Part shown: positions 14,762 to 64,000 of the stretch, piece after piece | Position numbering within the stretch: the stretch's first letter is position 1 | How the letters are laid out: each line of letters begins with the position of its first letter | Source: Antedon bifida | Taxonomy: Eukaryota > Echinodermata > Crinoidea > Comatulida > Antedonidae | Direction of reading: 5' to 3' | Assembly: GCA_963402885.1 (NCBI GenBank) | Contig: OY727099.1 | Span: 8,358,001-8,422,000 of the forward strand | DNA: 64,000 nucleotides | The notes under the pieces: generated by a model | Database searches by the model: none | Seen by the model: the letters and a program-made list of their open reading frames with translations, nothing else | What the model was told of the DNA's origin: nothing | Position numbers and translations under genes: made by a program

Positions 14762-16528
14762 ATGGCTAGCAAGAATGTAAGTCTACTTGGAGATATAGAT
14801 GATAAAGTACTGGAATGTTCTATCTGTAATGGAAGACTAGAAGACCCAAAATCACTTAGCTGCCTTCATACTTTCTGTCTGAAATGTTTGGAAAATTGGG
14901 TTCAAACCAACAATGGACAACTTACATGTCCGAATTGTCGCAAAAAATATCCCATTCCAGAAGGAGGGCTTCAAAAACTTGCACCAAATACAATTCTTAA
15001 CAACCTCTTGGAAACCATCAAACAGCATGAAGAGAAAGGTAAGGTTAAAGGCACTGCCTCTCTGTGTGCTTCTCATGCTAAACCATTACAGATGTATTGC
15101 ACAAAATGTAAAGTACCAATATGCATAGAATGCACTGCAATGGACCATGCCGCAGGAGATGGAAAACATGAACTAATTAACATTGTAACAGCATTTAATA
15201 CGTTTAAGGAAACCTCAGAACACTTGAAAAAAGCTGCCAATGAATCCATAAGAAAAACAGAAAATGTACTTAAAGTAATCACAAAGAATGCTAACAAACT
15301 AGAAAAAAGTAAAGAGGCAAGTCTCACAGATATTGATAACCAAGTTCAAGAAATGGTACAAGTAATCAAGAAAAAAGGAGAAGAAATGAGAAAAAAAGTT
15401 GAAGCAAATTATATGGAGGAAAAGGAAGTTAATGACGTACAAATTACAAATTTAACAAAAACCATCTCTGAATTAAACACAAGTGTGAGTTTCCTAAATC
15501 AGTTACTAAAGAGTGAGCCAGCAACTGCTATGAAATCAAGTGGGATTGTATTAAATAAAATGATGGATGAAATTAGTAAATCTGAAGAAATCAAGCAAAA
15601 GGACAGCAGACAAATTAACTTCATCAGAAACAAACAGCAAATTGATTTATTGAAAGAAAATGACATTGGAAATGTTACATTCAAACAAGTTAATATTAAG
15701 GAAGAGGATATGCCTAGCAGAGTAGCAAAGTGTGATGATGACATTGGAAATGTTGTATTCAGACCACTTACTATCAAAGTAGAGGCTAAACCTTGGGGAT
15801 TAGCAAAGTGTGATAATGATTGCTTGCTGGTTTCATTTCTCTCAAATGAAATTCACAAATACAACCAATCAGGAGAATGTATAAGTAAGATTACACTACT
15901 AGAAGGTGTGAGAGTTTACAGAATGTACAAAATGAAGAATGACAACATAGCATTCAGTGATCCAGGTAATGAATGCATTCAAGTATGTGATATGAATGGT
16001 CGTGTGATCAAATCCCTTGGCAAGGGTGTATTGATGGATCCATGTGGTATTCACATAGATGAGGCAACTAATGTTATATATGTAGCAGATGGAAGAAATG
16101 GATGTGTGCTGTTTGACTTTAATAGTGGTAAGAAGTTAAAAAGGATAGAGTCAGAAAATGGAGAACATGAATACACTGATGTTACACTTACAAAAACTGG
16201 TAATGTACTTGTAGCAGATAAAGGACAACATCAAGTATTATTGTATGATGACAAGGACAAGTCACTGAAAGTACTCATCAATGGAGGAGATAGAGATGGT
16301 AAGGTGTGGTTGCCATATGGAGTTGCAGTTGATGAGGATGACAACATCATCATAGCAAATATAAACACAATAGAACTATTCAGGAGCGATGGACATTTTA
16401 TCAAAAGAATTGATAAGCAAGAAGATGAAATTATTGTACCACGGCAGTTATATATCATGTCTCATAACCCATGTATGATTGCTGTAGCAAATTACTTGGA
16501 GAGCACAATCAAAATATTTAATTATTAA
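14762..16528 (+). CDS. T1: TRIM RING/B-box/coiled-coil/NHL protein, 588 aa
   Basis: Probable cytoplasmic RING E3 ubiquitin ligase. RING: C19, C22, C34, H36, C39, C42, C56, C59 (C3HC4). B-box 2: C102, H105, C113, C116, C121, C124, H129, H136. A coiled coil rich in Lys, Glu and Asn covers about 145-275. A six-bladed NHL-like propeller runs from about 325 to the end (KIFNY). There is no filamin domain between coil and propeller, unlike TRIM2/3/71. It is 26 residues longer than T4 and T8 beyond the one-residue N-terminal difference, because a 78-bp segment is tandemly duplicated (15662-15739 and 15740-15817, NDIGNVTF ... VAKCDD, then DIGNVVF ... LAKCDN). The start is set by the splice acceptor at 14760 and the family sequence MASK. 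The frame is complete and the gene plausibly functional. Confidence 0.93.
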   Translation: MASKNVSLLGDIDDKVLECSICNGRLEDPKSLSCLHTFCLKCLENWVQTNNGQLTCPNCRKKYPIPEGGLQKLAPNTILNNLLETIKQHEEKGKVKGTASLCASHAKPLQMYCTKCKVPICIECTAMDHAAGDGKHELINIVTAFNTFKETSEHLKKAANESIRKTENVLKVITKNANKLEKSKEASLTDIDNQVQEMVQVIKKKGEEMRKKVEANYMEEKEVNDVQITNLTKTISELNTSVSFLNQLLKSEPATAMKSSGIVLNKMMDEISKSEEIKQKDSRQINFIRNKQQIDLLKENDIGNVTFKQVNIKEEDMPSRVAKCDDDIGNVVFRPLTIKVEAKPWGLAKCDNDCLLVSFLSNEIHKYNQSGECISKITLLEGVRVYRMYKMKNDNIAFSDPGNECIQVCDMNGRVIKSLGKGVLMDPCGIHIDEATNVIYVADGRNGCVLFDFNSGKKLKRIESENGEHEYTDVTLTKTGNVLVADKGQHQVLLYDDKDKSLKVLINGGDRDGKVWLPYGVAVDEDDNIIIANINTIELFRSDGHFIKRIDKQEDEIIVPRQLYIMSHNPCMIAVANYLESTIKIFNY

Positions 16529-18285
16529 TGTATAAAATATAACATTACATTAAATAAACAAAGTTGAATGAAGGATCAATTACATTAAATCCAAATTATC
16601 TATTAATTAGTTTATTACACAAAGCTTAACATTTAAAAACAATCTTCAAATAAAACTCAAAATAAGCAATATCTATTGTAAAAATTTCATATGAGGCGAA
16701 ACTTATGATTTTGTATTTTCTAATGTCATCATTGACAAATAAATGTTAATGTTATTAATGTATAAAATATATCATTACATTAAAGAAACAAAGTTAAATG
16801 AAAGATCAAGTACATTAAATCAAAATTATCCATTAGTTTATTTATTAATTTATTGTCCTAATTACACAAAGCTTAACATTTAAAAACAATCTTCAAATAA
16901 ATTGGAAAGATTTGCTTAAAATAAAACTAAAAATATCTAATATTTATTTTTAAAATTTCATGAGGTGAAACTTGAATGCCTTGTATTTTCTAACTTTAAT
17001 ATCATTTGAACTAATGTTATAATTATGTCATTGAAAAATAAATGTTTTTTTAGTTTTGTAAATGTTAACACTGTTGTAGAAAAACTGTAAAATCTAAGTA
17101 AACACAGACATGAAGAAATCAGCTGAAATAGAAGATAATAAGTCACACTATTATTTAGGCATTTGAAGGGACACGACATTGTGTATACAACTTGTTTGAG
17201 CAGTTTTAATCTCATCTTTTATTTGAACGACAGTTATCAACAAATACATGCATACATGTTTTAGGAAGCACTTCCCATTATCAGTGTGAAGCTATATTAC
17301 ATGGTGCGTTTATTTGTACTCATTTGCACCGGTATTTAAATAGTATTTTTAGAATAAGCCTAATTTGAATTACTGTATGTTACACTTGCAAGCAAAGGCA
17401 GTTTTTGTTTTAGTTTTCCTAATTTTAAATCATTAAATACAACATTATTCTTATTTTATCAAGCATAGATGTTTATGATAATATAAGTAGATTGTACCTT
17501 AATAAAGTGATCACGTATTATTATATAGTAATACTGGCTACCTACAAGTAATATTAATTTTTTTTAAAGCAAATTTCATACTAGTTTTCTCCCTGAAATC
17601 AAATGTAATTAATAATACTGTAATTATTTTGAGTATTTTGAGTTGATGTTATACTTTAGTTTGTAGTCAAAAGCATTATAATGGTTTCCTAGCTTTATAT
17701 CATAATATTTTATATTCATTATACATGTTATGCAATGAACATAATTCTCATTCTATCAAGTAAGCATTAATATGGTAGTGGTGTCTATACAGAAGTACTT
17801 TGTACCTTAATTAAGTGACCATATAAATGGATAATAAATAATATTAATAAAAATCTTGGCAATTTCAGTCTAGTTTTTTCCTTGAATTCAAATGTATAAT
17901 TTTTTGAAGGATTTGATCATTGCTGTCTATTTAAATGTTTGATCGCATTTAGCTGAGTCATGGTATGGCAGTATAAAACATGAACGTCCTTAACGCTATA
18001 CTTTTTATTCCCTTTCCATAGACTGAGATAGGAGGGAGCTTTTGATTAGCGATAACGCAGTCACGCACTACCAACCTAGATCAGGTCAATCAGTGTGTCA
18101 TTGCTTGGACCTAAAAACCATCAACCTAGCTGTGTCTAGGTGGCAAGGACACACGTCCTAATATCTTCGCATACACACAATGATTTAACTTGACATAGTT
18201 TGGTCATGCAAATCGAAAGCTCACAAATGTGTAGAATACAGTGTTGTACAGTACATTCAACTCTGAGAGTACCGACTGCAATATT
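16529..18285. repeat. T1 3' UTR and duplicated downstream flank
   Basis: Non-coding. The 3' UTR begins ATGTATAAAATAT, like most array members, and a second copy of that segment at 16757 shows a local duplication. From 17710 the sequence becomes almost identical to 36190 onward. No independent gene is seen; a small minus-strand frame at 16958-17215 is chance. Confidence 0.65.
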
Positions 18286-19563: not shown

Positions 19564-21258
19564 ATGGCTAGCAAGGATTTAAGTTTACTTGGAGATATAG
19601 ATGAGAAAGTACTAGAATGTGCTATATGTAATGAACGGCTAGAAGACCCAAAATCACTTGGCTGCCTTCATAGTTTCTGTCTGAAGTGTTTGGAAAATTG
19701 GATGCAAACCAACAGTGGACAGCTAACATGCCCTATTTGTCGCAAAGAGTATCCTATTCCAGTAGGTGGGCTTGAAAAACTTGCACCAAATACATTTCTT
19801 AACAACCTCTTGGAAACCATAAAACAACATGAAAATAAAGAAGAGGTTAAAGGCACTGCCTTACTGTGCCCCTCTCATGCTAAACCATTAGAAATGTATT
19901 GCACAAAATGTAAAATAACAATATGCATAGAATGCACTGCAATGGAACATGCTGCAGGAGATGGAAAACATGAACTAATTAACATTGTTACAGCATTTAA
20001 TACATTTAAGGAAACATCAGAAGACTTAAAGAAAGCTGCCAATGAATCCATAAAAAAGGTAGTAAATGCACTCAATGTAATCACAAAGAATGCTGAAGAA
20101 CTAGAAGAAAGTAAAGAGGCAAGTCTCACAGATATTGATAACCAAATTCAAGAAATGGTACAAGTAATCCAGAAAAAAGGAGATGAAATGAAGAGGAAAG
20201 TTGAAGAAATTCATATGAAGGAAAAGCAAGTTAATGACGTACAAATGACAAAATTAAGAACAATAAATTCTAAATTAAATGCAAATGTGAGTTTTCTGAA
20301 TAAATTATTAAAAAGTGAGCCAGCAACTGCTATGAAATCAAGTGAGATTGTATTAAATACACTGATGGATGAAATTAATAAATCTGAAGAAATCAAGCAA
20401 ATCAGTACTACTAGACAAATAAACTTTATCGAAAACAAACGTCCGATTGATTTGTTGAAAGAAAATGATATTGGAAAACTTACATTCAAACCACTTACTA
20501 TCAAAGTGGAGCGCAATCTTTATGGAGTAATAAAATATGATGATTGCTTGCTGGTTTCATTTTGCACCAATGAAATTCACAAGTACAAACAATCAGGGGA
20601 GTCTGTAACCAATGTTACTTTACCAGAAGGTGTGAAAGTTAACAGAATGTACAAAATGAAGAATGGCAACATAGCATTCAGTGATGTTGGTAATAAATGC
20701 ATTCAAGTATGCGATATGAATGATCATGTGATCAAATCCATTGGTAAGGGTGTATTGAAATATCCATGGGGTATTCACATAGATGAGGCAGCTAATGTTA
20801 TATATGTAGCAGACGGGATAATTGAATGCGTGTTCACATTTAACATTAACAGTGGGAAGAAGTTGAAGACGATAGGTTCACAAAAGAAAGGAACTTATGG
20901 ATACTCTGATGTTGCACTTACAAAAAGTGGTAAAATACTTGTAGCAGATGCAGGACACAGCCAAGTATTATTGTATGATGACAAGGACAAGTCAATGAAA
21001 GTACTCATCAATAGAGGAGATGAAGATGGTAAGGTGATGATGCCATGGGATGTTGTAGTTGATGAGGATGATAACATCATCATAGCAAGCAAAGACAAAC
21101 TACAACTATTCAGTAGTGATGGGCAATTCATTAAAAGAATTGATGAACAAAAAGATGGAATTAGTAATCCAAGTCAGTTATGTATCATTTCAGATAACCC
21201 ACGAAGGATTGCAATTGGAAATTATGATGGCGACACAATTAAAATATTCAATTATTAA
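19564..21258 (+). CDS. T2: TRIM RING/B-box/coiled-coil/NHL protein, 564 aa
   Basis: Intact copy. The RING (CAICNERLEDPKSLGCLHSF ... CPICRKEY) and B-box (CPSHAKPLEMYCTKCKITIC ... H) keep all zinc ligands. The coil differs from T1 in having KVVNALNVITKN, and in the linker ISTTRQINFIENKR. The propeller loops are distinctive: NLYG, VSFCTN, KYPWG, VADGIIE, MMPWD, SNPSQ. It is almost identical to T6, which carries a frameshift, so T2 is the intact member of that pair. Its C-terminal third from VLLYDDKDKSMK onward is identical to that of T8. The terminus is IKIFNY, then TAA. Probable ubiquitin ligase; the substrate is unknown. Confidence 0.93.
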   Translation: MASKDLSLLGDIDEKVLECAICNERLEDPKSLGCLHSFCLKCLENWMQTNSGQLTCPICRKEYPIPVGGLEKLAPNTFLNNLLETIKQHENKEEVKGTALLCPSHAKPLEMYCTKCKITICIECTAMEHAAGDGKHELINIVTAFNTFKETSEDLKKAANESIKKVVNALNVITKNAEELEESKEASLTDIDNQIQEMVQVIQKKGDEMKRKVEEIHMKEKQVNDVQMTKLRTINSKLNANVSFLNKLLKSEPATAMKSSEIVLNTLMDEINKSEEIKQISTTRQINFIENKRPIDLLKENDIGKLTFKPLTIKVERNLYGVIKYDDCLLVSFCTNEIHKYKQSGESVTNVTLPEGVKVNRMYKMKNGNIAFSDVGNKCIQVCDMNDHVIKSIGKGVLKYPWGIHIDEAANVIYVADGIIECVFTFNINSGKKLKTIGSQKKGTYGYSDVALTKSGKILVADAGHSQVLLYDDKDKSMKVLINRGDEDGKVMMPWDVVVDEDDNIIIASKDKLQLFSSDGQFIKRIDEQKDGISNPSQLCIISDNPRRIAIGNYDGDTIKIFNY

Positions 21259-22050: not shown

Positions 22051-23002
22051 TATTTCACAAAATGTAAAGTACCAATTTGCATAGAATGTACTGAAATGGA
22101 ACATGCTGCAGGAGATGGAAAACATGAACTAATTAACATTGCTACAGCATTTAATACTAAACAGCCAATTGATTTATTGAAAGAAAATGACATTGGTAAT
22201 GTTGTATTCAAACCACTTCCTATCAAAGTAGAGGATCATCCTTTGGGAGTAACAAAGTGTGATGATGATTGCTTGCTGGTTTCATTTCTCACAAATCAAA
22301 TTCACAAGTACAACCAATCAGGAGAATGCACAAGCCAGATTACACTACCAAAAGGTGTAATGGTTTACAGAATGTACAGAATGAAGAATGGCAACATAGC
22401 ATTCAGTGATCTGGGTAATAAATGCATTCAAGTATGTGATATGAATGGTCATGTGATCAAATCCATTGGTAAGGGTGTATTGAAGACTCCACGTGGTATT
22501 CACATAGATGAGGCAAGTAATGTTGTATATGTAGCAGATGAAGAAAATGGATGTGTGTTCATGTTTGACATTGATAGTGGTAAGAAACTGAGAAAGATAG
22601 GAACAAAAAATGAAGAACATGAATACGTTGATGTTACACTTACAAAAACTGGTAAAGTACTTGTAGCAGATGAAGGAAATGATCAAGTATTATTATATGA
22701 TTACAAGGACCAGTCACTGAAAGTATTTATCAATGATGGATATGAAGATGGTAAGGTGATGTGGCCAAGTGGAGTTGTAGTTGATGAGGATGACAACATC
22801 ATCATAGCAAGTATTGACAAACTACAACTATTCAGCAGTGATGGTCAATTCATCAAAAGAATTGATGAACAAGAAGATGGAATTAGTGTACCACTTCAGT
22901 TATGTATCATTTCTCATAACCCATGTATGGTTGCTGTAGCAACCATGTATGGTTGCTGTAGCAAATGAGGGTGACAACACAATCCAAATATTTAATCATT
23001 AA
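22051..23002 (+). pseudogene. T3: RING-less, coil-less TRIM-NHL pseudogene
   Basis: Upstream intron sequence is joined directly to the middle of the B-box (CTKCKVPICIECTEMEHAAG, of which the first Cys context is altered), so the RING and the first half of the B-box are missing. A second deletion joins TAFNT to KQPIDLL and removes the whole coiled coil. The propeller is complete until a 22-bp tandem duplication (CCATGTATGGTTGCTGTAGC plus AA, twice, around 22918-22962) shifts the frame, giving ATMYGCCSK and a stop at 22968. The family terminus is at 23002. It is the sister of T9, which has the same two deletions but lacks this duplication. Confidence 0.88.
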
Positions 23003-26604: not shown

Positions 26605-28290
26605 ATGGCTAGCAAGGATTTAAATCTACTTGGAGATATAAATGATAAACTAGAATGTTCTATCTGTAATGGAAGGCTAGAAGACCCAAAATCACTTAGC
26701 TGCCTTCATAGTTTCTGCCTGAAGTGTTTGGAAAATTGGGTTCAAACCAATCATGGCAAGCTAACATGCCCTATTTGTCGCAAAGAGTATCCCATACCAG
26801 AAGGAGGGCTTGAAAAACTTGCACCAAATACAATTCTTAACAACCTCTTGGAAACCATCAAACAACATGAAGAGAAAGATGAGGCTAAAGGTACTGCCTC
26901 TCTGTGCACCTCTCATGCTAAACCATTAGAGATGTATTGCACAAAATGTAAAGTACCAATATGCATAGAATGCACTGCAATGGAACATGCTGCAGGAGAT
27001 GGAAAACATGAACTAATTAACATTGTTACAGCATTTAATACGTTTAAGGAAACATCAGAAGACTTAAAGAAAGCTGCCAATGAATCCATAAGAAAAACAG
27101 AAAATGTACTCAAAGTAGTGACAAAAAATGCTAAAGAACTAGAAGAAAGTAAAAAGGCAAGTCTCACAGATATTGATAACCAAATTCAAGAAATGGTACA
27201 AGTAATCAAGAAAAAAGGAGAAAAAATGAGAAAAAAAGTTGAAGCAAATTATATGGAGGAAAAGGAAGTTAATGATGTACAAATTACAAATTTAACAAAA
27301 ATCATCTCTGAATTAAACACAAGTGTGAGTTTCCTAAATCAGTTACTAATAAGTGAGCCAGCAACTGTTATGAAATCAAGTGAGAGTGTATTAAATACAC
27401 TGATGGATGAAATTAATACATTTGAAGAAATCAAGCAAAAGGACAGCAGACAAATTAACTTTATCAGAAACATACAGCTAAATGAATTATTGAAAGAAAA
27501 TGACATTGGAAATGTTCTATTCAAACCACTTCCTATCAAAGTAGAGGCTAATCCTTGGGGAGTAGCAAAGTTTGATGATGATTGCTTGCTGGTTTCATTT
27601 CGCACAAACGAAATTCACAAATACAAACTATCAGGAGAATGTATAAGCAAGATTACACTACCAGAAGATGTGATTGTTTACAGCATGTACAGAATGAAGA
27701 ATGGCAACATAGCATTCAGTGATCCAGGTAATGAATGCATTCAAGTATGTGATATGAATGGTCATTTGATCAAATCCATTGGTAAGGGTGTATTGATGGA
27801 TCCATGTGGTATTCACATAGATGAGGCAACTAATGTTATATATGTAGCAGATTGGGACAATGATTGTGTGTTTATGTTTGACTTTAATAGTGGTAAGCAG
27901 TTGAAGAAGATAGGGTCAGAAAATGAAGAACATGGATACCTTGATGTTACACTTACAAAAACTGGTAAAGTACTTGTAGCAGATGCAGAACACAGTCAAA
28001 TATTATTGTATGATGACAAGGACAAGTCAATGAAAGTACTCATCAATAGAGGATTTGAAGATGGTAAGATGATGTGGCCATGCGAAGTTGTAGTTGATGA
28101 GGATGATAACATCATCATAGCAAGTAACAACAAACTACAACTATTCAGTAGTGATGGGCATTTTATCAAAAGAATTGATAAACAAGATGGAATTAAGTCG
28201 CCAGAGCAGTCATGTATCATTTCTCATAACCCACATATGGTTGCTGTAGCAAATCAGGGTGATAACACAATCAATATGTTTAATTATTAA
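26605..28290 (+). CDS. T4: TRIM RING/B-box/coiled-coil/NHL protein, 561 aa
   Basis: Intact copy. The N-terminus MASKDLNLLGDINDKLECSI is one residue shorter than T1 and is shared with T8. RING and B-box ligands are all present (C18 through C58; the B-box starts at C101). The coiled coil spans about 140-275. Propeller loop residues: NPWG, VSFRTN, SDPGNEC, MDPCG, VADWDND, MMWPCE, KSPEQ. The last blade ends NTINMFNY. The start follows the splice acceptor at 26603. The 3' UTR is interrupted after about 28330 by a 1.4-kb TIR element. Probable E3 ligase with its own ligand specificity; this is inferred. Confidence 0.93.
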   Translation: MASKDLNLLGDINDKLECSICNGRLEDPKSLSCLHSFCLKCLENWVQTNHGKLTCPICRKEYPIPEGGLEKLAPNTILNNLLETIKQHEEKDEAKGTASLCTSHAKPLEMYCTKCKVPICIECTAMEHAAGDGKHELINIVTAFNTFKETSEDLKKAANESIRKTENVLKVVTKNAKELEESKKASLTDIDNQIQEMVQVIKKKGEKMRKKVEANYMEEKEVNDVQITNLTKIISELNTSVSFLNQLLISEPATVMKSSESVLNTLMDEINTFEEIKQKDSRQINFIRNIQLNELLKENDIGNVLFKPLPIKVEANPWGVAKFDDDCLLVSFRTNEIHKYKLSGECISKITLPEDVIVYSMYRMKNGNIAFSDPGNECIQVCDMNGHLIKSIGKGVLMDPCGIHIDEATNVIYVADWDNDCVFMFDFNSGKQLKKIGSENEEHGYLDVTLTKTGKVLVADAEHSQILLYDDKDKSMKVLINRGFEDGKMMWPCEVVVDEDDNIIIASNNKLQLFSSDGHFIKRIDKQDGIKSPEQSCIISHNPHMVAVANQGDNTINMFNY

Positions 28291-33522: not shown

Positions 33523-35216
33523 ATGACTAGCAAGGATTTAAGTTTACTTGGAGATATAGATGAGAAAGTAATAGAATGTTCTATCTGTAATGGAAGACTA
33601 GAAGACCCAAAATCACTTAGCTGCCTTCATAGTTTCTGTCTGAAGTGTTTGAAGAATTGGGTTCAAACCAATCATGGCAAGCTAACATGCCCTATATGTC
33701 GCAAAGAGTATCCTATTCCAGTAGGAGGGCTTCAAAAACTTGCACCAAATACATTTCTTAACAACCTCTTGGAAACCATCAAACAACATGAAGTAAAAGA
33801 TGAGTTTACTGGCACTGCCTCTCTGTGCGCCTCTCATGATAAACCATTAGAAATGTATTGCACAAAATGTAAAGTACCAATATGCATAAAATGCACTGAA
33901 ATGGAGCATGCCGCAGGAGATGGAAAACATGAACTAATTAACATCGCAACAGCATTTAATACGTTTAAGGAAACCTCAAAAGACTTAAAGAAAGCTTCCA
34001 ATGAATCCATAAAAAAACAGAAAATATACTTAAAGTAGTCACAAAGAATTCTAAAGAACTAGAAGAAAGTAAAGAGGCAAGTCTCATGGATATTGATAAC
34101 CAAATTCAAGAAATGGTACAAGTAATCCAGAAAAAAGGAGAAGAAATGAGAAAAAAAGTTGAAGCAAATTATATGGAGGAAAAGGAAGGTAATGACATAC
34201 AAATTACAAATTTAACAAAAATCATCTCTGAATTAAACACAAGTGTGAGTTTCATAAATCAGTTACTAATGAGTGAGCCAGCAACTGCTATGAAATCAAG
34301 TGAGAGTGTATTAAATACACTAATGGATGAAATTAATAAATCTCAAGAAATCAAGCAAAAGGACAGCAGACAAATTAACTTCATCAGAAACAAACAACCA
34401 ACTGATTTATTGAAAGAAAATGACATTGGAAATGTTGTATTCAAACCACTTCCTATCAAAGTAGAGGGTAAGCCTCATGGATTAGCAAAATGTGAGGATG
34501 ATGATTGCTTCCTAGTTTCATTTCACACAAATAAAATTCACAAGTACAACCAAGCAGGAGAATGTACAAGCAAGATTACACTACCAAAAGGTGTGGGAGT
34601 TTACAGAATGTACAGAATGAAGAATGGCAACATAGCATTCAGTGATGGTTGTAATAAATGCATTAAAGTATGTGATAAGAATGGTCATGTGATTAAATCC
34701 ATTGGTAAGGGTGCATTGATGGATCCATTTGGTATTCACATAGATGAGGCAACTAATGTTATATATGTAGCAGATTGGGACAATTATTGTGTGTTTATGT
34801 TTGACTTTAATAGCGGTAAGCAGTTAAAGAAGATAAGAACAAAAAATAAAAAAAATAAACACAAATTCACTGATGTTGCACTTACAAAAACTGGTAAAGT
34901 ACTTGTAGCAGATAGAGAGCAGCATCAAGTATTATTGTATGATGAAAAAAAGTCAACAATCAAAGTATTCATCAATAAAGGATTTAAAGATGGTAAGGTG
35001 TGGTGCCCACATGGAGTTGTAGTTGATGAGGATGACAACATCATCGTAGCAAGCTGCAACAAACTACAACTATTCAGTATTGATGGACATTTCATCAAAA
35101 GAATTGATAAACAAGAAGATGGAATTAGTGTACCAGATCAGTTATGTATCATTTCTCATAACCCATGTATGGTTGCTGTAGCAATTTGGGGCGACATTAA
35201 AATATTTAATTATTAA
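33523..35216 (+). pseudogene. T5: TRIM-NHL gene with one 1-base frameshift
   Basis: Begins MTSKDLSLLGDIDEKVIECS. The RING and B-box are complete (CASHDKPLEMYC ... H). In the A-run at about 34008-34018 (CCATAAAAAAACAG, where relatives read CCATAAGAAAAACAG) one base is missing. The first frame therefore stops at 34038 after 171 codons, early in the coiled coil. The other frame then runs open to 35216 with the whole propeller. Loop residues: KPHG, VSFHTN, SDGCNKC, MDPFG, VADWDNY, VWCPHG, SVPDQ. The rest is undamaged, so either this is a recent pseudogene or the base is a homopolymer sequencing error. If real, a RING/B-box-only peptide would be made. Confidence 0.88.
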
Positions 35217-38052: not shown

Positions 38053-39746
38053 ATGGCTAGCAAGGATTTAAGTTTACTTGGAGATATAGATGAGAAAGTA
38101 CTAGAATGTGCTATATGTAATGAACGGCTAGAAGACCCAAAATCACTTGGCTGCCTTCATAGTTTCTGTCTGAAGTGTTTGGAAAATTGGGTGCAAACCA
38201 ACAGTGGACAGCTAACATGCCCTATTTGTCGCAAAGAGTATCCTATTCCAGTAGGAGGGCTTGAAAAACTTGCACCAAATACATTTCTTAACAACCTCTT
38301 GGAAACCATAAAACAACATGAAAATAAAGAAGAGGTTAAAGGCACTGCCTTACTGTGCCCCTCTCATGCTAAACCATTAGAGATGTATTGCACAAAATGT
38401 AAAATAACAATATGCATAGAATGCACTGCAATGGAACATGCCGCAGGAGATGGAAAACATGAACTAATTAACATTGTTACAGCATTTAATACATTTAAGG
38501 AAACATCAGAAGACTTAAAGAAAGCTGCCAATGAATCCATAAAAAAGGTAGTAAATGCACTCAATGTAATCACAAAGAATGCTGAAGAACTAGAAGAAAG
38601 TAAAGAGGCAAGTCTCACAGATATTGATAACCAAGTTCAAGAAATGGTACAAGTAATCGAGAAAAAGGAGATGAAATGAAGAGGAAAGTTGAAGAAATTC
38701 ATATGAAGGAAAAGCAAGTTAATGACGTACAGATGACAAAATTAAGAACAATAAATTCTAAATTAAATGCAAATGTGAGTTTCCTGAATAAATTATTAAA
38801 AAGTGAGCCAGCAACTGCTATGAAATCAAGTGAGATTGTATTAAATACACTGATGGATGAAATTAATAAATCTGAAGAAATCAAGCAAATCAGTACTACT
38901 AGACAAATAAACTTTATCGAAAACAAACGTCCGATTGATTTGTTGAAAGAAAATGATATTGGAAAACTTACGTTCAAACCACTTACTATCAAAGTGGAGC
39001 GCAATCTTTATGGAGTAATAAAATATGATGATTGCTTGCTGGTTTCATTTTGCACCAATGAAATTTACAAGTACAAACAATCAGGGAAGTCTGTAAGCAA
39101 TGTTACTTTACCAGAAGGTGTGAAAGTTAACAGAATGTACAAAATGAAGAATGGCAACATAGCATTCAGTGATGTTGGTAATAAATGCATTCAAGTATGC
39201 GATATGAATGATCATGTGATCAAATCCATTGGTAAGGGTGTATTGAAATATCCATGGGGTATTCACATAGACGAGGCAGCTAATGTTATATATGTAGCAG
39301 ACGGGATAATTGAATGCGTGTTCACATTTAACATTAACAGTGGGAAGAAGTTGAAGACGATAGGTTCACAAAAGAAAGGAACTTATGGATACTCTGATGT
39401 TGCACTTACAAAAAGTGGTAAAATACTTGTAGCAGATGCAGGACACAGCCAAGTATTATTGTATGATGACAAGGACAAGTCAATGAAAGTACTCATCAAT
39501 AGAGGAGATGAAGATGGTAAGGTGATGATGCCATGGGATGTTGTAGTTGATGAGGATGATAACATCATCATAGCAAGCAAAGACAAACTACAACTATTCA
39601 GTAGTGATGGGCAATTCATTAAAAGAATTGATGAACAAAAAGATGGAATTAGTAATCCAAGTCAGTTATGTATCATTTCAGATAACCCACGAAGGATTGC
39701 TATTGGAAATTATGACGGCGACACAATTAAAATATTCAATTATTAA
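38053..39746 (+). pseudogene. T6: near-copy of T2 with one 1-base frameshift
   Basis: Almost identical to T2 along the whole length, including the distinctive propeller loops (NLYG, VSFCTN, KYPWG, VADGIIE). At about 38659-38666 it has GAGAAAAAGGAG where T2 has CAGAAAAAAGGAG. One A is lost, giving VIEKKEMK and a stop at 38679 (208 codons: RING, B-box and part of the coil). The rest is open in the next frame (38676-39746). The lesion is a homopolymer deletion, as in T5 and T10. It is either a very young pseudogene or an assembly error. Confidence 0.88.
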
Positions 39747-41238: not shown

Positions 41239-42936
41239 ATGGCTAGCAACGAATTAAGTCTACTTGGAGATCTAGATGAGAAAGTTCTAGAATGTTCTGT
41301 CTGTAATGGAAGACTAGAAGACCCAAAATCACTTAGCTGCCTTCATAGTTTCTGTCTAAAGTGTTTGGAAAAATGGGTTCAAACCAACAATGGACAGCTA
41401 ACATGTCCTATTTGTCGCAAGTTGAATCTCATTCCAGTAGGAGGGCTTCAAAATCTTCCGCCAAATACAATTCTTAACAACCTTTTGGAAACTGTTAAAC
41501 AACATGAACAGAAAAATGAGATCAAAAGCACCACATTGTTGTGCCCTTCTCATACTCAACCATTAGAGATGTATTGCACAAAATGTAAAGTACCAATTTG
41601 CATAGAATGCACTGAAATGGAACATGCCATAGGAGATGGAAAACATGAACCAATTGGCATTATAACAGCATTTGAAATGTTTAAAAAAAGCTCAGTCGAA
41701 TTAAAAAAAGCCGCAAATGAATCCATAAGAAAAATAGAAAATGCACTAAAAATTGTCACAAAGAATGCTAACGAACTATAAGAAAGTAAAGAGACAAGTC
41801 TCACAGAAATTGATAACACAGTTAAACAAATAGTAAAAATAATCCAGAAAAAAGGTGACGAAATAAAGGAAAAAGTTGAAGTAGTTTATCAAAATGGCAA
41901 GAAATATAATGATGCACAAATTAAGAAATTAAAAACAATCAATTCTGAATTAGATACACATTTGAGTTTCCTAAATCAGTTATTAAAGAGTAAGCCAGCA
42001 ACTGCTATGAAATCAAGTGACATTGTATTAAATACACTGAAGGATCAAATTAATAATTCTGAAGAAATCACACAAAGGGACAGTGGAACAATTAACTTTA
42101 TCAGAAACCAAGATCAAATTGATTTATTGAAAGAAAACGACATTGGAAATGTTACAATCACAGAACTTACTGTCAAAGTAGAAGGTATACCTAGAGGAGT
42201 AGCAACGTGTGATGATGATTGCTTGCTGGTTTCATTTCGCACAAATGAAATTTACAAATACAAACAATCAGGAGAATGTATAAGCAATATTCCACTACCA
42301 GAAGGTGTGAAAGTCAGAAGAATGTACAAAATGAAGAATGGCAACATAGCATTAAGTGATGTCGGTAATAAATGCATTCAAGTATGTGATATGAATGGTC
42401 ATGTGATCAAATCCATTGGTAAGGGTGTATTAACATTTCCACATGGTATTCACATAAATGAGTCAACAAATGTCATATATGTCGCAGATATTGTCATGCA
42501 ATGTGTGTTGATGTTTGACTTTAATAGTGGTGAGCAGTTGAAGAAAATAGAAACACCAGATATAGGATCTCTTGAGTGTTCTGATGTTGCACTTACAAAA
42601 ACTGGTAAAGTACTTATAGCAGATGAAGGAAAACATCAAGTATTATTATTTGATAATGATGATGAAAAGTCACTGAAAGTAATTATCAATAAAGGAGATA
42701 AAGATGGTAAGGTGATGATGCCAAGTGAAATTGTAGTTGATGAGGATGATAACATCATTATAGCAAGTGTAAACAAACTACAACTATTCAGTAGTGATGG
42801 ACATTTTATCAAAAGAATTGATCAGCAAGAAGATGGAATTAGTGATCCACGTCAGTTATGCATCATTTCTTATAACCCATGTATGATTGCTGTTGCAAAT
42901 TACAGTGACAACACAATCAAACTATTCAATTATTAA
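41239..42936 (+). pseudogene. T7: TRIM-NHL gene with one nonsense codon
   Basis: The most diverged full-length member (MASNELSLLGDLDEKVLECS; RING with CRKLNLIP; B-box CPSHTQPLEMYC). The frame is intact over 565 codons except for TAA at 41779-41781, where relatives have GAA (NEL-stop-ESKETSLTEIDN). As read, translation gives a 180-residue RING plus B-box protein ending at the start of the coil. The propeller (41962 onward) is fully open with loops IPRG, VSFRTN, TFPHG, VADIVMQ, MMPSE, SDPRQ and ends NTIKLFNY. It is a point-mutation pseudogene or a truncated dominant-negative-like product. No other damage is visible. Confidence 0.88.
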
Positions 42937-46798: not shown

Positions 46799-48484
46799 AT
46801 GGCTAGCAAGGATTTAAATCTACTTGGAGATATAAATGATAAACTAGAATGTTCTATCTGTAATGGAAGGCTAGAAGACCCAAAATCACTTGGCTGCCTT
46901 CATAGTTTCTGTCTGAAGTGTTTGGAAAATTGGGTTCAAACCAACAATGGACAGTTAACATGTCCTATTTGTCGCAAAGAGTATCCTATTCCAGTAGGAG
47001 GACTTCAAAAACTTGCACCAAATACAATTCTTAACAACCTCCTGGAAACCATCAAACAACATGAAGAGAAAGATGAGGCTAAAGGCACTGCCTCTCTTTG
47101 TGCCTCTCATGCTAAACCATTAGAAATGTATTGTACAAAATGTAAAGTACCAATATGCATAGAATGCACTGCAATGGAACATGCCGCAGGAGATGGAAAA
47201 CATGAACTAATTAACATTGTTACAGCATTTAATACGTTTAAGGAAACATCAGAAGACTTGAAGAAAGCTGCCAATGAATCCATAAGAAAAACAGAAAATG
47301 TACTTAAAGTAGTCACAAAGAATGCTAAAGAACTAGAGGAAAGTAAAGATGCAAGTCTCACAGATATTGATAACCAAGTTCAAGAAATGGTACAAGTAAT
47401 CAAGAAAAAAGGAGAAGAAATGAGAAAAAAAGTTGAAGCAAATTATATAGCGGAAAAGGAAGGTAATGACGTACAAATTACAAATTTAACAAAAATCATC
47501 TCTGTATTAAACACAAGTGTGAGTTTCCTAAATCAGTTACTAATGAGTGAACCAGCAACTGCTATGAAATCAAGTGAGAGTGTATTAAATACACTGATGG
47601 ATGAAATTAATACATTTGAAGAAATCAAGCAAAAGGACAGCAGACAAATTAACTTTATCAGAAACAAACAACCATTTGATTTATTGAAAGAAAATGACAT
47701 TGGAAATGTTGTATTCAACCCACTTACTATCAAAGTAGAGGGTGAGCCTTGGGGGGTAGCAAAGTGTGATGATGATTGCTTGCTGGTTTCATTTTGGACA
47801 AATGAAATTCATAAGTACAAACTATCAGGAGAATGTATAAGCAAGATTACACTACCAAGAGGTGTGGAAGTTAGCAAAATGTACAGAATGAAGAATGGCA
47901 ACATAGCATACAGTGATCTAGGTAATAAATGCATTCAAGTATGCGATGTGAATGGTCATGTGATCAAATCCATTGGTAAGGGTATATTGATGATTCCATG
48001 TGGTATTCACATAGATGAGGCAACTAATGTTATATATGTAGCAGATGTAGGAAATGGATGTGTGTTGTTTAACATCAAAAGTGGTAAGAAGTTGAAGAAG
48101 ATAGGATCACAAAATGAAGAACATGAATACACTGATGTTACACTTACAAAAACTGGTAAAGTACTTGTAGTAGATGCAAGACACAGCCAAGTATTATTGT
48201 ATGATGACAAGGACAAGTCAATGAAAGTACTCATCAATAGAGGAGATGAAGATGGTAAGGTGATGATGCCATGGGATGTTGTAGTTGATGAGGATGATAA
48301 CATCATCATAGCAAGCAAAGACAAACTACAACTATTCAGTAGTGATGGGCAATTCATTAAAAGAATTGATGAACAAAAAGATGGAATTAGTAATCCAAGT
48401 CAGTTATGTATCATTTCAGATAACCCACGAAGGATTGCAATTGGAAATTATGATGGCGACACAATTAAAATATTCAATTATTAA
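46799..48484 (+). CDS. T8: mosaic TRIM RING/B-box/coiled-coil/NHL protein, 561 aa
   Basis: Intact. The upstream region is T5/T11-like, the N-terminus is T4-like (MASKDLNLLGDINDKLECSI), and the last ~100 residues are identical to T2 (VLLYDDKDKSMKVLINRGDE ... NPRRIAIGNYDGDTIKIFNY). The 3' flank (48485 onward) is also the T2 flank. The switch lies near 48170-48200 (VVDARHSQ against VADAGHSQ in T2). All RING and B-box ligands are kept. Propeller loops: EPWG, VSFWTN, SDLGNKC, MIPCG, VADVGNG, then T2-type MMPWD and SNPSQ. It is the product of gene conversion or unequal crossing-over within the propeller, creating a new blade combination. Confidence 0.93.
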   Translation: MASKDLNLLGDINDKLECSICNGRLEDPKSLGCLHSFCLKCLENWVQTNNGQLTCPICRKEYPIPVGGLQKLAPNTILNNLLETIKQHEEKDEAKGTASLCASHAKPLEMYCTKCKVPICIECTAMEHAAGDGKHELINIVTAFNTFKETSEDLKKAANESIRKTENVLKVVTKNAKELEESKDASLTDIDNQVQEMVQVIKKKGEEMRKKVEANYIAEKEGNDVQITNLTKIISVLNTSVSFLNQLLMSEPATAMKSSESVLNTLMDEINTFEEIKQKDSRQINFIRNKQPFDLLKENDIGNVVFNPLTIKVEGEPWGVAKCDDDCLLVSFWTNEIHKYKLSGECISKITLPRGVEVSKMYRMKNGNIAYSDLGNKCIQVCDVNGHVIKSIGKGILMIPCGIHIDEATNVIYVADVGNGCVLFNIKSGKKLKKIGSQNEEHEYTDVTLTKTGKVLVVDARHSQVLLYDDKDKSMKVLINRGDEDGKVMMPWDVVVDEDDNIIIASKDKLQLFSSDGQFIKRIDEQKDGISNPSQLCIISDNPRRIAIGNYDGDTIKIFNY

Positions 48485-49275: not shown

Positions 49276-50197
49276 TATTTCACAAAATGTAAAGTACCAA
49301 TTTGCATAGAATGTACTGAAATGGAACATGCTGCAGGAGATGGAAAACATGAACTAATTAACATTGCTACAGCATTTAATACTAAACAGCCAATTGATTT
49401 ATTGAAAGAAAATGACATTGGTAATGTTGTATTCAAACCACTTCCTATCAAAGTAGAGGATCATCCTTTGGGAGTAACAAAGTGTGATGATGATTGCTTG
49501 CTGGTTTCATTTCTCACAAATCAAATTCACAAGTACAACCAATCAGGAGAATGCACAAGCCAGATTACACTACCAAAAGGTGTAATGGTTTACAGAATGT
49601 ACAGAATGAAGAATGGCAACATAGCATTCAGTGATCTGGGTAATAAATGCATTCAAGTATGTGATATGAATGGTCATGTGATCAAATCCATTGGTAAGGG
49701 TGTATTGAAGACTCCACGTGGTATTCACATAGATGAGGCAAGTATATGTAGCAGATGAAGAAAATGGATGTGTGTTCATGTTTGACATTGATAGTGGTAA
49801 GAAACTGAGAAAGATAGGAACAAAAAATGAAGAACATGAATACGTTGATGTTACACTTACAAAAACTGGTAAAGTACTTGTAGCAGATGAAGGAAATGAT
49901 CAAGTATTATTATATGATTACAAGGACCAGTCACTGAAAGTATTTATCAATGATGGATATGAAGATGGTAAGGTGATGTGGCCAAGTGGAGTTGTAGTTG
50001 ATGAGGATGACAACATCATCATAGCAAGTATTGACAAACTACAACTATTCAGCAGTGATGGTCAATTCATCAAAAGAATTGATGAACAAGAAGATGGAAT
50101 TAGTGTACCACTTCAGTTATGTATCATTTCATATAACCCATGTATGGTTGCTGTAGCAAATGAGGGTGACAACACAATCCAAATATTTAATTATTAA
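49276..50197 (+). pseudogene. T9: sister of T3, RING-less and coil-less
   Basis: Carries the same two deletions as T3 (intron to mid-B-box; TAFNT joined to KQPIDLL). At about 49741-49748, 8 bases are lost: GATGAGGCAAGTATATGTAG here against GCAAGTAATGTTGTATATGT in T3. The first frame ends at 49758, and the remainder is open from 49733 to 50197. It lacks the 22-bp duplication of T3 and ends normally (NTIQIFNY). The two sisters were thus disabled by different later lesions. Confidence 0.88.
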
Positions 50198-52732: not shown

Positions 52733-52779
<47 letters not shown>

Positions 52780-53699: not shown

Positions 53700-55404
53700 A
53701 TGGCTAGCAAGTATTTAAATCTACTTGGAGATTTAGATGAGAAAGTACTAGAATGTTCTATCTGTAATGAAAGACTAGAAGACCCAAAATCACTTAGCTG
53801 TCATCATAGTTTCTGCCTGAAATGTTTGAAGAATTGGGTTCAAACCAATCATGGCAAGCTAACATGCCCTGTTTGTCGTAAAGAATATCCTATTTCAGTA
53901 GGAGGGCTTGAAAAACTTGCACCAAATACAATTCTTAACAACCTCTTGGAAACCATCAAACAACATGAAGAGAAAGATGAGGCTAAAGGCACTGCCTCTC
54001 TGTGTGCCTCTCATGCTAAACCATTAGAAATGTATTGTACAAAATGTAAAGTACCAATATGCATAGAATGCACTGCAATGGAACATGCCGCAGGAGATGG
54101 AAAACATGAACTAATTAACATTGTTACAGCATTTAATACGTTTAAGGAAACATCAGAAGACTTAAAGAAAGCTGCCAATGAATCCATAAGAAAAACAGAA
54201 AATGTACTTAAAGTAGTCACAAAGAATGCTAAAGAACTAGAGGAAAGTAAAGAGGCAAGTCTCACAGATATTGAGAACCAAGTTCAAGAAAGGGTACAAG
54301 TAATCCAGAAAAAAGGAGAAGAATTGAGAAAAAATGTTGAAGCAAATTATATAGCGGAAAAGGAAGGTAATGACGTACAAATTACAAATTTAACAAAAAT
54401 CATCTCTGTATTAAACACAAGTGTGAGTTTCCTAAATCAGTTACTAATGAGTGAGCCAGCAACTGCTATGAAATCAAGTGAGATTGTATTAAATACACTG
54501 ATGGATGAAATTAATACATCTGAAGAAATCAAGCAAAAGGACAGCAGACAAATTAACATCATCAGAAACAAACAGCCAATTGATTTACTAAAAGAAAATG
54601 ACATTGGAAATGTTGTATTTAAACCACTTTCTATCAAAGTAGAGGGTGAGCCTTCGGGAGTAGCAAAGTGTGATGATGATTGCTTGCTGGTTTCATTTTT
54701 GAGAAATGAAATTCACAAATACAACCAATCTGGAGAATGTATAATCAAGATTACACTACCAGAAAGTGTGATGGTTTACAGAATGTACAGAATGAAGAAT
54801 GGCAACATAGCATTCATTGATTGGGGTAATGAATGCATTAAAGTATGTGATATGAATGACCATGTGATCAAATCCATTGGTAAGGGTATATTGAAGAGAA
54901 CAATAAAGAATCCATGTGGTATTCACATAGATGAACCAACTAATGTTATATATGTAGTTGATTGCGACATGGAATGTGTGTTTATGTTTGACATAATTAA
55001 TGGTAAGCTGTTGAAGAAGATAGGAACACAAAAGAAAGAAAATGGATACTCTGATGTTGCACTTACAAAAACTGGTAAAGTACTTTGTAACAGATGTAGT
55101 AAATCATCAAGTATTTTTGTATGATGACAAGGACAAGTCAATGAAAGTACTCATCAATGAAGGAGGCGAGGATGGTAAGGTGAAAGGGCCATGTGGAGTT
55201 GTAGTTGATGAGGATGATAACATCATCATAGCAAGTATAGATAAACTACAACTATTCAGTAGTGATGGACATTTTATCAAAAGAATTGATCAACACAAAG
55301 GTGGAATTAGTTGGCCAACACAGTTATGTATCCTTTCTCATAACCCATGTATGGTTGCTCTAACAAATAGGGGTGACAACACAATCAAAATATTTAATTA
55401 TTAA
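53700..55404 (+). pseudogene. T10: TRIM-NHL gene with one 1-base frameshift and a loop insertion
   Basis: Starts MASKYLNLLGDLDEKVLECS after the acceptor at 53698; an open frame reaching back to 53640 is intronic. The RING (CHHSFCLKCLKNW) and B-box are complete. A 12-bp insertion gives GILKRTIKNPCGIHI, four extra residues in a propeller top loop. At about 55082-55086, ACTTTGTAACAG replaces ACTTGTAGCAG. One extra T shifts the frame and ends it at 55124, while the rest is open to 55404. Loops: EPSG, VSFLRN, IDWGNEC, VVDCDME, VKGPCG, SWPTQ. Young pseudogene or homopolymer error. Confidence 0.88.
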
Positions 55405-60274: not shown

Positions 60275-60289
60275 TTTCAACTATTCATA

Positions 60290-61064: not shown

Positions 61065-62919
61065 TCCTATCACCACCATGTGCATTTGTTTGTGTTGATT
61101 TAAAGTCCGTAAGCAGCTGTAGTTTTATTGTACTACTAAAGATGCGTTAAACGTGTCAAAAATTCTAGGTATGTGCTGTAAGTTTGTTTAAAAAACAATT
61201 TGTTAGGAATAATGTTGTAATATCAGCCATAAACGTTAGTCAATTTTTACTGACAAATGGACAAATTATTTTCTGGATCATGTACAGACATTTAGATATT
61301 AAACCTTATTCAATTTTAGTACTTAATTTTGTAGTGATATGATATTTTAAAAATTACGTTAAATTAGAGTGAGGATTTTAACTTAACAAGCCAGCCATGA
61401 GTTTCACAGAAATCACGATATTATTTAAGTTACTAATTTTAAATCTTTTAAGCACAATGGTATTCTTAGAATAGAAACTCAAATATAAATGAACCATAAA
61501 TAATATTGAGTTTAAAATGTTCTGATTATAATGATGCCCAAGTTAATAAAAAGGCTACATTCATAAACCAATAAAACTGAACTATATTATCGACTTTATT
61601 TTCAAAATACCAAAGCATAAAAAGGAATTAACACAAATAATTAAGAAAAATTACATTATCGAGCATTTACTCATTGCAAAAAACATGAAAACCAAAAAAA
61701 AGCTATGTTGCTTGCGTGTACAGTACTTACTATTATCATACAGACTTGAATATAATCCCACCCCCTGAAAAAGGTTTTCCGTGGGCTTATATGGGCAACA
61801 CTTCTGTAGAAGCTACCTCAAAACTTACCTTTCTATAAAATAGAATTCCATCACCTCTTAAAGCTAAAACTCAGGGTAAATAAAAAGTATAAACTAAATT
61901 CTGAATAAAATAATATGTTTCTCATTCTGCTGTTTCCAAAAACAAAGTTCTAAGGTTAAAAAAAACTAAAGCTACTAACGCAAACAATTCACTTACCGCC
62001 AAAATTGTTTTCTTCAGTGTATCTTCATGTGCAATATAAACAATGAAAAATAATCTTGCAAAATTCGAGTTATATCTCGCTCTTCGAGGAGAAAGGCTAT
62101 TTCAGTTTATCCAGGTAAGCTAGGCACAAAATAAAACACTACACTTTAGTATCAGGTGCTGGGATTCCTTGCATCTACTTACTAGAATCAGCAACGATGA
62201 CAATGATTTTAATATACCTACCATGCCTTGCAACAGTACAGTATAATTGTTCAAATGTCTTGTCCTTCAAATGCCTACATAACAGTGTGACTTAATATTA
62301 CTGGGCCATTTTTTGTTTAGATCAAACACATAATGGAAACATAGTTCCATTTTTTATATTACCAGGAAGCTTTTGCAAAGGTCTCTAGGCCTAGCCTTGT
62401 GTACAATTGTTTCTGTCCATAAACCTCTCCATAGTCTTTAAGGGTGTATACAGTACATCTACCTACCTTTAGTGTCTTTATTTTTGGTTCAAATGTTTTA
62501 TTTACTCAATAACTAATATGATATATTTATAGTTATACTGTAATAATTTTAAAATTCCTACCCTGTCTGTTTACTATAGGATGAATGTAGATTATTTAAA
62601 AACTTTAATATTATAAATACAAAATGCACAAACAAAGTAGCCCACTATGAAGTAGCCCACTATGTACAAACATTGCTATACAAACAATACAACAAACTAA
62701 TTAAACTAAAGAGAAGGTAAAGGTATTTATTTTGGTCTTCAAACTTAACTTGGTACAGAGATTCGATCCCATGCCTATCACATGCTAGTACGATATTATC
62801 ATTACAGAACTGATGTTTTAACACGTATTGAACTGTGATACATGTATATGTATTGATAATTATTTAACATGGTAAAGTGAACAATTATAATCACATTGAA
62901 GTTTTGAAAATCATTAACA
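61065..62919. repeat. Duplicated API5 intron and spacer, copy 3
   Basis: Sister of 31100-32956, with the same CAGACTTGAATATAA element, CTAGGCCTAGCC and AAAGTAGCCCACTATGAAGT strings and small indels. No gene is seen. Confidence 0.65.
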
Positions 62920-63488
62920 AACAAACTATGGTGTGTTTCTATTGTGATGGATTGATTTAGTTAAGTGTTTTGCATCCCAGATTTTGAAATCATCACACCT
63001 ACAGTAGTTTAGAATACTGCTCTGGACATATATGATATTTCAACGCAGAAAAACCAACTTTATAACATTTCATTATTGGGAAAGTTAGTTTGAATTCTTG
63101 TAACTATAACATTTGAATACAGTACAAGGTATTTACATATGCTTTTTTATGGATTTAATTTGTATACAAGTCTCATATACAAACAACCATGATACTGTAG
63201 ATGGACTTTGTTAGACGTACAGTACTTAGGCATGGCTGGAATTGGAGAACTAGGTACATGTGTATCCTATTTTATTCTCCAGTCTTGTTTCTGAAATATA
63301 ATCTAAAATATGGTGTGGATAATCAGTTAATAAGTAATTGTTATTTAATGCTCCATATTCATCTAAATTACACATAAAATCCTAATGTAATAACTTTTAT
63401 TGTGTGGGGTAGAAAGTAACATGGTGAGAATATACAGTTCATAATATTATTTCTATTAAACAAAATAATTATAAATTACTATTGCAGG
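62920..63488 (+). promoter_or_regulatory. T11 upstream block, probable exon 1 and intron
   Basis: T5-type: AACTATGGTGTGTTTCTATT ... TTTTGCATCCCAGATTTTGA, with donor GTACAAG|GTATTTACA at 63128/63129. The acceptor CTATTGCAG ends at 63487. Confidence 0.5.
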
Positions 63489-64000
63489 ATGGCTAGCAAG
63501 GATTTAAGTTTACTTGGAGATATAGATGAGAAAGTACTAGAATGTTCTATTTGTAATGGAAGACTAGAAGACCCAAAATCACTTAGCTGCCTTCATAGTT
63601 TCTGTCTGAAGTGTTTGAAGAATTGGGTTCGAACCAATGGCAAGCTAACATGCCCTATATGTCGCAAAGAGTATCCTATTCCAGTAGGAGGGTTTCAAAA
63701 ACTTGCCCCAAATACCTTTCTTAACAACCTTTTGGAAACTGTGAAACAACACGAACAGAAAAGGAGGGTTAAAGGCACTGCCTCTCTGTGCCCCTCTCAT
63801 GATCAACCATTGAAAATGTATTGTACAAAATGTAAAGTACCAATATGCATAGAATGCACTGAAATAGAACACGCCGCAGGGGATGGAAAACATGAACTAA
63901 TTAACATTGTAACAGCATTTAATACGTTTAAGGAAACCTCAGAAGACTTAAAGAAAGCTGCCAATGAATCCATAAGAAAAACAGAAAATGTACTTAAAGT
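63489..64000 (+). CDS. T11: TRIM RING/B-box protein, cut by window edge
   Basis: The frame is open from ATG (63489) to the last base: about 170 codons covering the RING (C19 to CPICRKEY), B-box (CPSHDQPLKMYCTKCKVPIC ... EIEHAAGDGKH) and the start of the coiled coil (KKAANESIRKTENVLK). The RING loop is one residue shorter than in T5 (VRTNGKLTC against VQTNHGKLTC). QKRRVKGTASLC precedes the B-box. The upstream 3 kb is the duplicate of the T5 upstream region. Whether the propeller is intact cannot be seen. Confidence 0.9.
   Translation, partial: MASKDLSLLGDIDEKVLECSICNGRLEDPKSLSCLHSFCLKCLKNWVRTNGKLTCPICRKEYPIPVGGFQKLAPNTFLNNLLETVKQHEQKRRVKGTASLCPSHDQPLKMYCTKCKVPICIECTEIEHAAGDGKHELINIVTAFNTFKETSEDLKKAANESIRKTENVLK

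Follow-up and report, generated by a model that had tools for sequence, protein, structure and literature searches.

Through an analysis of the codon-level evolution of a tandem gene array, we found that the crinoid Antedon bifida carries many closely similar TRIM-NHL genes in which diversifying selection is concentrated on the top face of the NHL propeller, with the rest of the propeller and the N-terminal half largely constrained. The array runs through a stretch of 64,000 nucleotides of contig OY727099.1 (hereafter C12; positions 8,358,001 to 8,422,000 of a genome of 315.6 Mb in 27 contigs), which we call the window and to which all plain coordinates below refer. It contains 11 copies, all on the plus strand, of a gene that joins a RING, a B-box, a coiled coil, and an NHL propeller in a single frame, with the C-terminal six-bladed propeller that defines class VII TRIM-NHL proteins. 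An earlier note on this DNA had proposed an array that diversifies recognition on a fixed E3 ubiquitin ligase. The copies lie where it had placed them, and selection on the top loops stands beside invariant zinc ligands; the sequences give such diversified recognition on a fixed module good support in the window family. The fuller reading, of a tandem repertoire with a top face shuffled by gene conversion and with protein, possibly pathogen, ligands that would be ubiquitinated, we consider probable. Four points presented below go beyond that note: how far the array extends, that its genes are mosaics, what the silent rates show, and how the selected sites coincide with LIN-41 contacts.

For the window family, we aligned 29 open frames and used 24, the five most divergent being dropped (L018, L042, L044, L045, and L046); frames among L009 to L048 that were broken, truncated, or fused (e.g., L010) were kept out of the alignment. 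The ratio of nonsynonymous to synonymous substitution rates (dN/dS) was estimated on the codon alignment with our own code for the GY/F3x4 likelihood, which reproduced the IQ-TREE log-likelihood (-14884.2). Residues were assigned to strands A to D and to loops, DA and BC forming the top face and AB and CD the bottom face. Unless otherwise noted, results are for these 24 genes. The top loops together have a dN/dS of 2.28 (likelihood ratio of 383 against a value of 1; DA, 2.04; BC, 4.04), versus 0.46 for the bottom loops (AB, 0.37; CD, 0.52) and 0.46 for strands A to D together; in the N-terminal parts it is 0.46 in the RING, 0.33 in the B-box, 0.46 in the coil, and 0.58 in the linkers. Allowing dN/dS to exceed 1 improved the mixture likelihood of the propeller by 926 (twice the difference). 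A second set of loops, taken from an AlphaFold model of copy T4, which also serves as the reference for numbering, gave 2.28 for top loops, 0.41 for bottom loops, and 0.58 for strands (structure comparison was by VIA-align, with 50 matches listed). Calling a site selected when its posterior for dN/dS >1 exceeds 0.9, we found such sites in 12/12 model-derived top loops versus 0/11 bottom loops, amounting to 38 of 69 top residues and none of 46 bottom residues (Fisher P = 1.8 × 10−11); with our own loop borders the counts are 42/74 and 1/43, the single bottom residue being H544. Chance placement of the labels is ruled out, as none of 258 circular shifts reached 2.28 (maximum, 1.82). Neither outcome that the earlier note had named as refuting was observed: variable sites are not evenly spread over the propeller, and loop dN/dS is above the neutral level rather than at it. 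The selected sites are not fully confined to the top face, however; the top loops hold 42 of the 82, the N-terminal half holds 31, and 9 fall elsewhere (including H544).

The strongest sites lie directly before strand A and directly after strand B in every blade. On the plus strand of T4, examples are the blade 1 BC loop (residues 333 to 335; 27601..27609), in which 333, following VSF, is hypervariable; the blade 2 BC loop (374 to 377; 27724..27735), in which 374, following SD, takes 10 different residues among the 24 genes; the end of the DA loop and start of strand A in blade 3 (398 to 401, MDPC; 27796..27807); the BC loop of the same blade (417 to 420, WDND after VAD; 27853..27864); and the end of the DA loop and start of strand A in blade 5 (490 to 494, MWPCE; 28072..28086). 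The variable residues that had been listed from these places are found in the alignment, except that in T10 the segment CDME follows VVD rather than VAD and the D adjoining W is preceded by I rather than S. That changes pile up at equivalent positions of the blades is borne out by the copies of the window taken alone. This set comprised 8 of the 11 copies (T1, T2, T3, T4, T5, T7, T8, and T10), without the near-copies T6 and T9 and without T11, which is cut by the window end, and codons touched by indels were masked; it gave a top-loop dN/dS of 2.14 (interval, 1.93 to 2.36), against 0.52 for the bottom loops, 0.42 for the strands, and 0.47 for residues 1 to 270.

Four sister families elsewhere in the genome repeat this pattern. 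They comprise 38 frames of at least 550 amino acids (aa) among L049 to L088, of which 33 were used after near-duplicates (L054, L066, L074, L080, and L082) were dropped; L075 and L081 were too short. With the labels fixed on T4, top-loop dN/dS is 1.57, 1.29, 1.74, and 2.14 in the four families, with 0.28 to 0.38 in bottom loops and 0.23 to 0.47 in strands; the contrast is weakest in the family on contigs C16 and C7 (top, 1.16 to 1.29). These results bear on relaxed constraint, under which redundant copies simply drift and loops tolerate change. Such drift would fit the high whole-gene dN/dS (0.67) and the broken or truncated state of 6 of the 10 copies lying wholly in the window. However, the top loops are far above 1 rather than at the level expected of relaxed sites, and the gap between top and bottom is seen again in four families, also when the comparison is limited to open frames. 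For the top face the explanation is refuted, since the bottom loops are as exposed and yet stay at 0.41 to 0.46, and we give it practically no credence.

The copies are strongly mosaic. Linkage between sites falls from an r2 of 0.29 at 1 to 6 bases to 0.08 by 30 to 60 bases and 0.05 to 0.07 beyond, and near sites show greater compatibility than shuffled sites in 1,000 of 1,000 permutations when the whole gene is used and in 999 of 1,000 when only the propeller is; the decay within 30 to 60 bases points to gene conversion that shuffles loop variants. Individual pairs illustrate this: T8 and T2 are identical over their last 299 aligned bases (codons 462 to 561) versus 89.5% overall, T8 matches T4 at 100% and 97% in the first two 60-base windows, and T2 shares 128 identical bases with L038 against 85.8% overall. 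L020 and L025 differ at 4 codons in the N-terminal half versus 59 in the propeller, and from codon 301 onward the two have different best partners. Between L036 and L037, the overall synonymous divergence is 0.036, yet 46 of 178 nonsynonymous top-loop sites differ, with whole-codon replacements adjoining unchanged codons.

Mosaics can mislead site models, and a single tree imposed on such genes might produce false positive selection; therefore each N-terminal third and each blade was given its own tree. Top-loop dN/dS then exceeded 1 in all six blades (1.70 to 4.51), and the segment trees combined gave 2.77 for top loops, 0.56 for bottom loops, and 0.56 for strands. Without any tree, 12 disjoint closest pairs gave a ratio of nonsynonymous to synonymous differences per site of 1.99 in top loops and 0.52 to 0.57 elsewhere. 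When genes with neutral top loops were simulated on the segment trees and analyzed with one tree, top-loop values stayed at 0.81 to 1.04 in 12/12 runs. Thus, despite the strong mosaicism that speaks for it, a recombination artefact is refuted by tree-free pairs, segment trees, and simulation, and its probability is negligible.

The other half of the protein has the features of a ubiquitin ligase. In T4 the C3HC4 RING occupies residues 1 to 62 (26605..26790), the B-box residues 99 to 141 (26899..27027), and the coiled-coil region residues 142 to 270 (27028..27414), all on the plus strand; long helices follow the B-box in the T4 model, at low confidence. RING and B-box exceed the curated Pfam cutoffs in T1, T2, T4, and T8, and all 16 columns of predicted zinc ligands are invariant in 24/24 genes, as expected had the E3 part been fixed in the window family; ligase activity is predicted for this half. 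The C3HC4 motif is present in 24/24 frames of the window family, 9/9 of the family on C9, 12/15 of that on C16 and C7, 4/5 of that at 25.4 Mb on C12, and 0/4 of that on C8. It was not found in the first 140 residues of L059 to L062, L064, L065, L079, and L086, that frame only being considered. L031, L045, and L046 (616 to 636 aa) have an additional cysteine-rich stretch ahead of the B-box that is missing from the 561-aa form. The description of the first ~270 residues as constant proved right for the protein but not for the DNA: across 12 closest pairs drawn from the 24 genes, residues 1 to 302 have a synonymous divergence of 0.149, versus 0.137 for the whole gene. Gene conversion is accordingly rejected as the general cause of the constant N terminus, where silent divergence is 0.149 versus 0.096 in the strands; L020 and L025 are one pair that does show a constant N terminus of the gene-conversion type.

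As to what the variable face binds, a structural guide is zebrafish LIN-41, for which the consulted sections of PMC5908797 give RNA contacts at C563, R564, R581, S582, R611, K628, and D629 and further at Y658, W660, R676, R707, F722, R752, and R770. Placed by a HMMER alignment to 6fpt and checked by residue identity, these contacts sit around the proline preceding strand A and on the first BC-loop residues, and T4 residue 491 aligns, blade to blade, with R564. Of the 14 equivalents, 12 are selected sites (2.8 expected; P = 7 × 10−8), with blade equivalence assigned by hand and R611, R707, and R770 mapped approximately; T334 and G375 are the two outside. This coincidence raises the alternative that the top face was diversified for different RNAs, which LIN-41, Brat, and Mei-P26 bind, the proteins acting as repressors or degraders of, for instance, transposons or viral RNA. 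Also in its favor, a Filamin repeat ahead of the NHL domain, the arrangement of LIN-41, is matched in the four sister proteins tested, in one of them above the curated cutoff. Against it, the LIN-41 pocket is basic, whereas the net charge here ranges across genes from -4 to +4 at 19 hot sites, which we picked for their variability, and from -13 to +8 over the whole propeller. Trp accounts for 35 of 456 residues at the hot sites, 3 of 1,315 other top-loop residues, and 0 of 4,419 residues of the propeller outside the top loops; relative to the last category, Tyr is 10.3% versus 3.1% and Arg 8.1% versus 1.8%. This rise of Trp, Tyr, and Arg, with a fall of Lys, is in our judgment more like protein binding. 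The hot-site combinations are distinct in 24/24 genes, which differ on average at 15.5 of 19 sites. The face would resemble a protein-binding paratope more than the basic RNA pocket of LIN-41, and we consider RNA ligands unlikely.

If the ligands are proteins, they could still be self or gamete markers, read in allorecognition or reproductive conflict, or products of selfish elements instead of pathogen proteins. Such targets predict diversifying selection, copy turnover, and gene conversion equally well; on the other side, PMC2657112 and PMC3137616 regard viruses as the likely driver in the diversified TRIM families known so far, the latter adding that proof of binding is still required. We judge this alternative quite improbable. 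The scheme that we favor starts from tandem duplication of TRIM-NHL genes akin to the LIN-41/TRIM71 branch. The constant RING/B-box/coiled-coil half would act as a ubiquitin ligase and the top face of the propeller as a variable recognition surface, with about 40 loop residues under diversifying selection and the bottom loops and strands kept constant. Gene conversion in short stretches between copies would yield mosaic genes with new loop combinations, so that each gene would probably mark a different protein ligand with ubiquitin, the ligands most likely being fast-changing pathogen proteins.

Several points weigh against this scheme. Among the 82 selected sites, the 31 of the N-terminal half have dN/dS values that are mostly 1.4 to 3 but reach 6.4 (T102), and freeing dN/dS improves that half too, by 52 (twice the likelihood difference). 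The first loop classes were defined by us with the alignment already seen; with model-derived loops, the top value in the C16 and C7 family is only 1.16 (1.05 to 1.29) and that in the C9 family is 1.29; and the bottom loops of blade 2 are not clearly constrained (0.92; 0.56 to 1.33). Over the five families, 49 of 57 frames have the RING motif (25 of 33 in the sister families), and its absence from eight means that a fixed E3 part is not universal among the sister genes. All top-loop residues together are only 2.2% Trp and 4.4% Tyr, which limits the paratope-like composition to the 19 hot sites, and the approximate placement of three LIN-41 contacts and the 6 of 10 window copies that are not intact belong here as well. 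Finally, the synonymous rate in BC loops is raised to 2.0 (1.3 to 2.5, the upper bound being the edge of the grid), which may reflect a local mutation effect. A targeted or template-directed process that hypermutates loop codons, with selection secondary, would account for this rate, for the whole-codon swaps between close copies, and for the somewhat excessive three-base codon differences (57 versus 40.5, standard deviation 5.9, in 15 simulations). Synonymous rates are nevertheless ordinary in DA loops (0.80) and in top loops overall (1.15), and linkage to selected codons under gene conversion would likewise raise local silent divergence; we hold hypermutation to be highly unlikely. A more far-reaching formulation, to which we incline by a slight degree, is that the NHL propeller serves as a germline-encoded, antibody-like scaffold in five related families over several chromosomes, with a hypervariable ring of two or more sites per blade, mounted mostly on a constant RING ligase and reassorted by conversion.

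Of the 10 copies lying wholly in the window, four are open and full length: T1 (14762..16528; 588 aa), T2 (19564..21258; 564 aa), T4 (26605..28290; 561 aa), and T8 (46799..48484), an open mosaic gene. In T1, 78 bases are duplicated in tandem (15659-15819), which inserts 26 aa between coil and propeller; from split genome search matches, this duplication seems common to the 590-aa frames L015, L020, and L025. T5 (33523..35216) is full length, its frame being shifted once by a single base at an A run; T6 (38053..39746), a near-copy of T2, has one single-base frameshift in an A run; T7 (41239..42936) is full length with one in-frame stop (41779); and T10 (53700..55404) is full length but has a single additional base within a short stretch of T. 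As the indels of T5, T6, and T10 are in or beside short homopolymers, they could be either decay or consensus errors. T3 (22051..22968) is truncated, without RING and coil, and has a 22-base duplication near its 3' end; T9 (49276..50197), a near-copy of T3, is likewise truncated and has 8 bases deleted; and T11 (63489..64000) is the start of a copy that is open beyond the window end (L015, 590 aa). A 3' remnant of a further copy lies at 1877..2092, also on the plus strand, and short 3'-end remnants of others lie at 23685-23705, 50895-50915, and 55911-55931. A splice acceptor-like CAG stands 1 base ahead of the ATG in all nine copies that begin within the window; the coding part is therefore one exon, probably with an intron in the 5' leader.

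Judged by its internal matches, the window DNA is made up of recent segmental duplications: 16752-21693 matches 35210-40182 (95%), 19544-24417 matches 46780-51649 (93%), 24277-26335 matches 51443-53502 (95%), and 31107-34036 matches 61067-64000 (93%). A 61-base tandem repeat occurs in both members of a duplication (24216-24471, 4.1 copies; 51443-51636, 3.1 copies), and a 34-base unit is repeated 12 times in tandem with 95% matches (59862-60276). Reverse transcriptase frames at 3103-4554 (plus strand) and 44593-45756 (minus strand) match Pfam zf-RVT and RVT_1 and by inspection resemble long interspersed elements. Rfam gave nothing in the window at gathering scores, and ARAGORN found no tRNA.

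The array had been described for the window but is not limited to it; on C12 it spans about 8,281,959 to 8,527,638, past both window edges, with more copies at 9.14 to 9.19, 9.45 to 9.58, and 13.57 Mb and relatives on C1, C7, C8, C9, C15, and C16. With T4 as the query, at least 132 matching stretches were recovered from the whole genome at E ≤1 × 10−20, a lower bound because 78 of 691 first-look candidates were scored, and 80 stretches were retrieved for comparison. The array at 25.4 Mb on C12 was found through a B-box search, in which 150 of 479 candidates were scored and all 150 exceeded the cutoff; many of these places are in tandem arrays outside the families studied (e.g., C10 at 6.2 and 7.4 Mb and C1 at 6.28 Mb). 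A Filamin repeat lies between coil and NHL domain in 4/4 sister proteins tested, one each from C9, C16, C12 at 25.4 Mb, and C8, with L067 above the curated cutoff and L053, L085, and L060 below it. T1, T2, T4, and T8 gave no Filamin match and, at E of 0.001, no B30.2/SPRY match, the NHL domain being present instead. A scan of T4 against viral contigs gave no match. Contig C27 (15,844 bases; L089 and L094), of which the first 8,000 bases were read, is probably the mitochondrial genome, its T-rich strand having frames that by eye, under the invertebrate mitochondrial code, are cytochrome b, nad4, and nad5.

We know of no earlier NHL-based hypervariable recognition repertoire. If our reading is correct, this would be the first, and it would be an exception to the rule by which TRIMs that evolve fast and diversify carry SPRY/B30.2, the window family combining an NHL domain with the evolutionary behavior of the fast group on another protein fold. 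Similar ligase genes with differing propeller faces look like a ready-made set of recognizers, as immune receptors do, and would point to a system of recognition in an animal that lacks antibodies. They would also reveal where natural selection puts specificity on an NHL propeller and offer dozens of natural variants of a single scaffold for binding studies. TRIM2 and TRIM3 are few and conserved, and we are aware of no arrays of, or positive selection on, their NHL domains. LIN-41 is a single conserved gene with a basic pocket and a Filamin repeat, whereas the window family has many copies, no detected Filamin, and no conserved charge on the face. Primate TRIM5alpha is one locus that varies between species and not within one genome, and its recognition domain is B30.2, unlike the NHL domain here.

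Among the matches listed for open-license full text, no paper describes an NHL family that is hypervariable or under positive selection; PMC4346834 has 0 occurrences of "NHL", and PMC13428168 has 0 of "TRIM" and of "NHL". In the oyster, the loci associated with mortality from herpesvirus include TRIM genes according to PMC9437489, with "nhl" appearing 0 times in that text. In the consulted sections of their paper, Sardiello and colleagues (PMC2533329) distinguish a conserved TRIM group 1 with varied C-terminal domains from a group 2 that is young, evolves fast, and carries SPRY, and that reportedly does not occur in invertebrates and has a link with antiviral defense; NHL TRIMs would belong to group 1 on account of its varied C-terminal domains, which those sections do not state outright.

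Primate TRIM5alpha is a RING/B-box/coiled-coil (RBCC) ligase whose recognition domain has variable loops as its ligand surface (PMC3137616), an arrangement that the window genes would share. The nearest known systems are the teleost RBCC-B30.2 families finTRIM, btr, and trim35-like. With these the array shares multigene TRIMs, positive selection concentrated in loops of a ligand domain at the C terminus, copies that recombine with each other, and little such selection found in RING and B-box, as described in the parts of PMC2657112 and PMC3137616 used here. The difference lies in the ligand domain: that of the fish finTRIMs is the B30.2 beta sandwich, whereas in this invertebrate it is a six-bladed NHL propeller, whose variable loops, unlike those of the finTRIM B30.2, are arrayed on one face of every blade.

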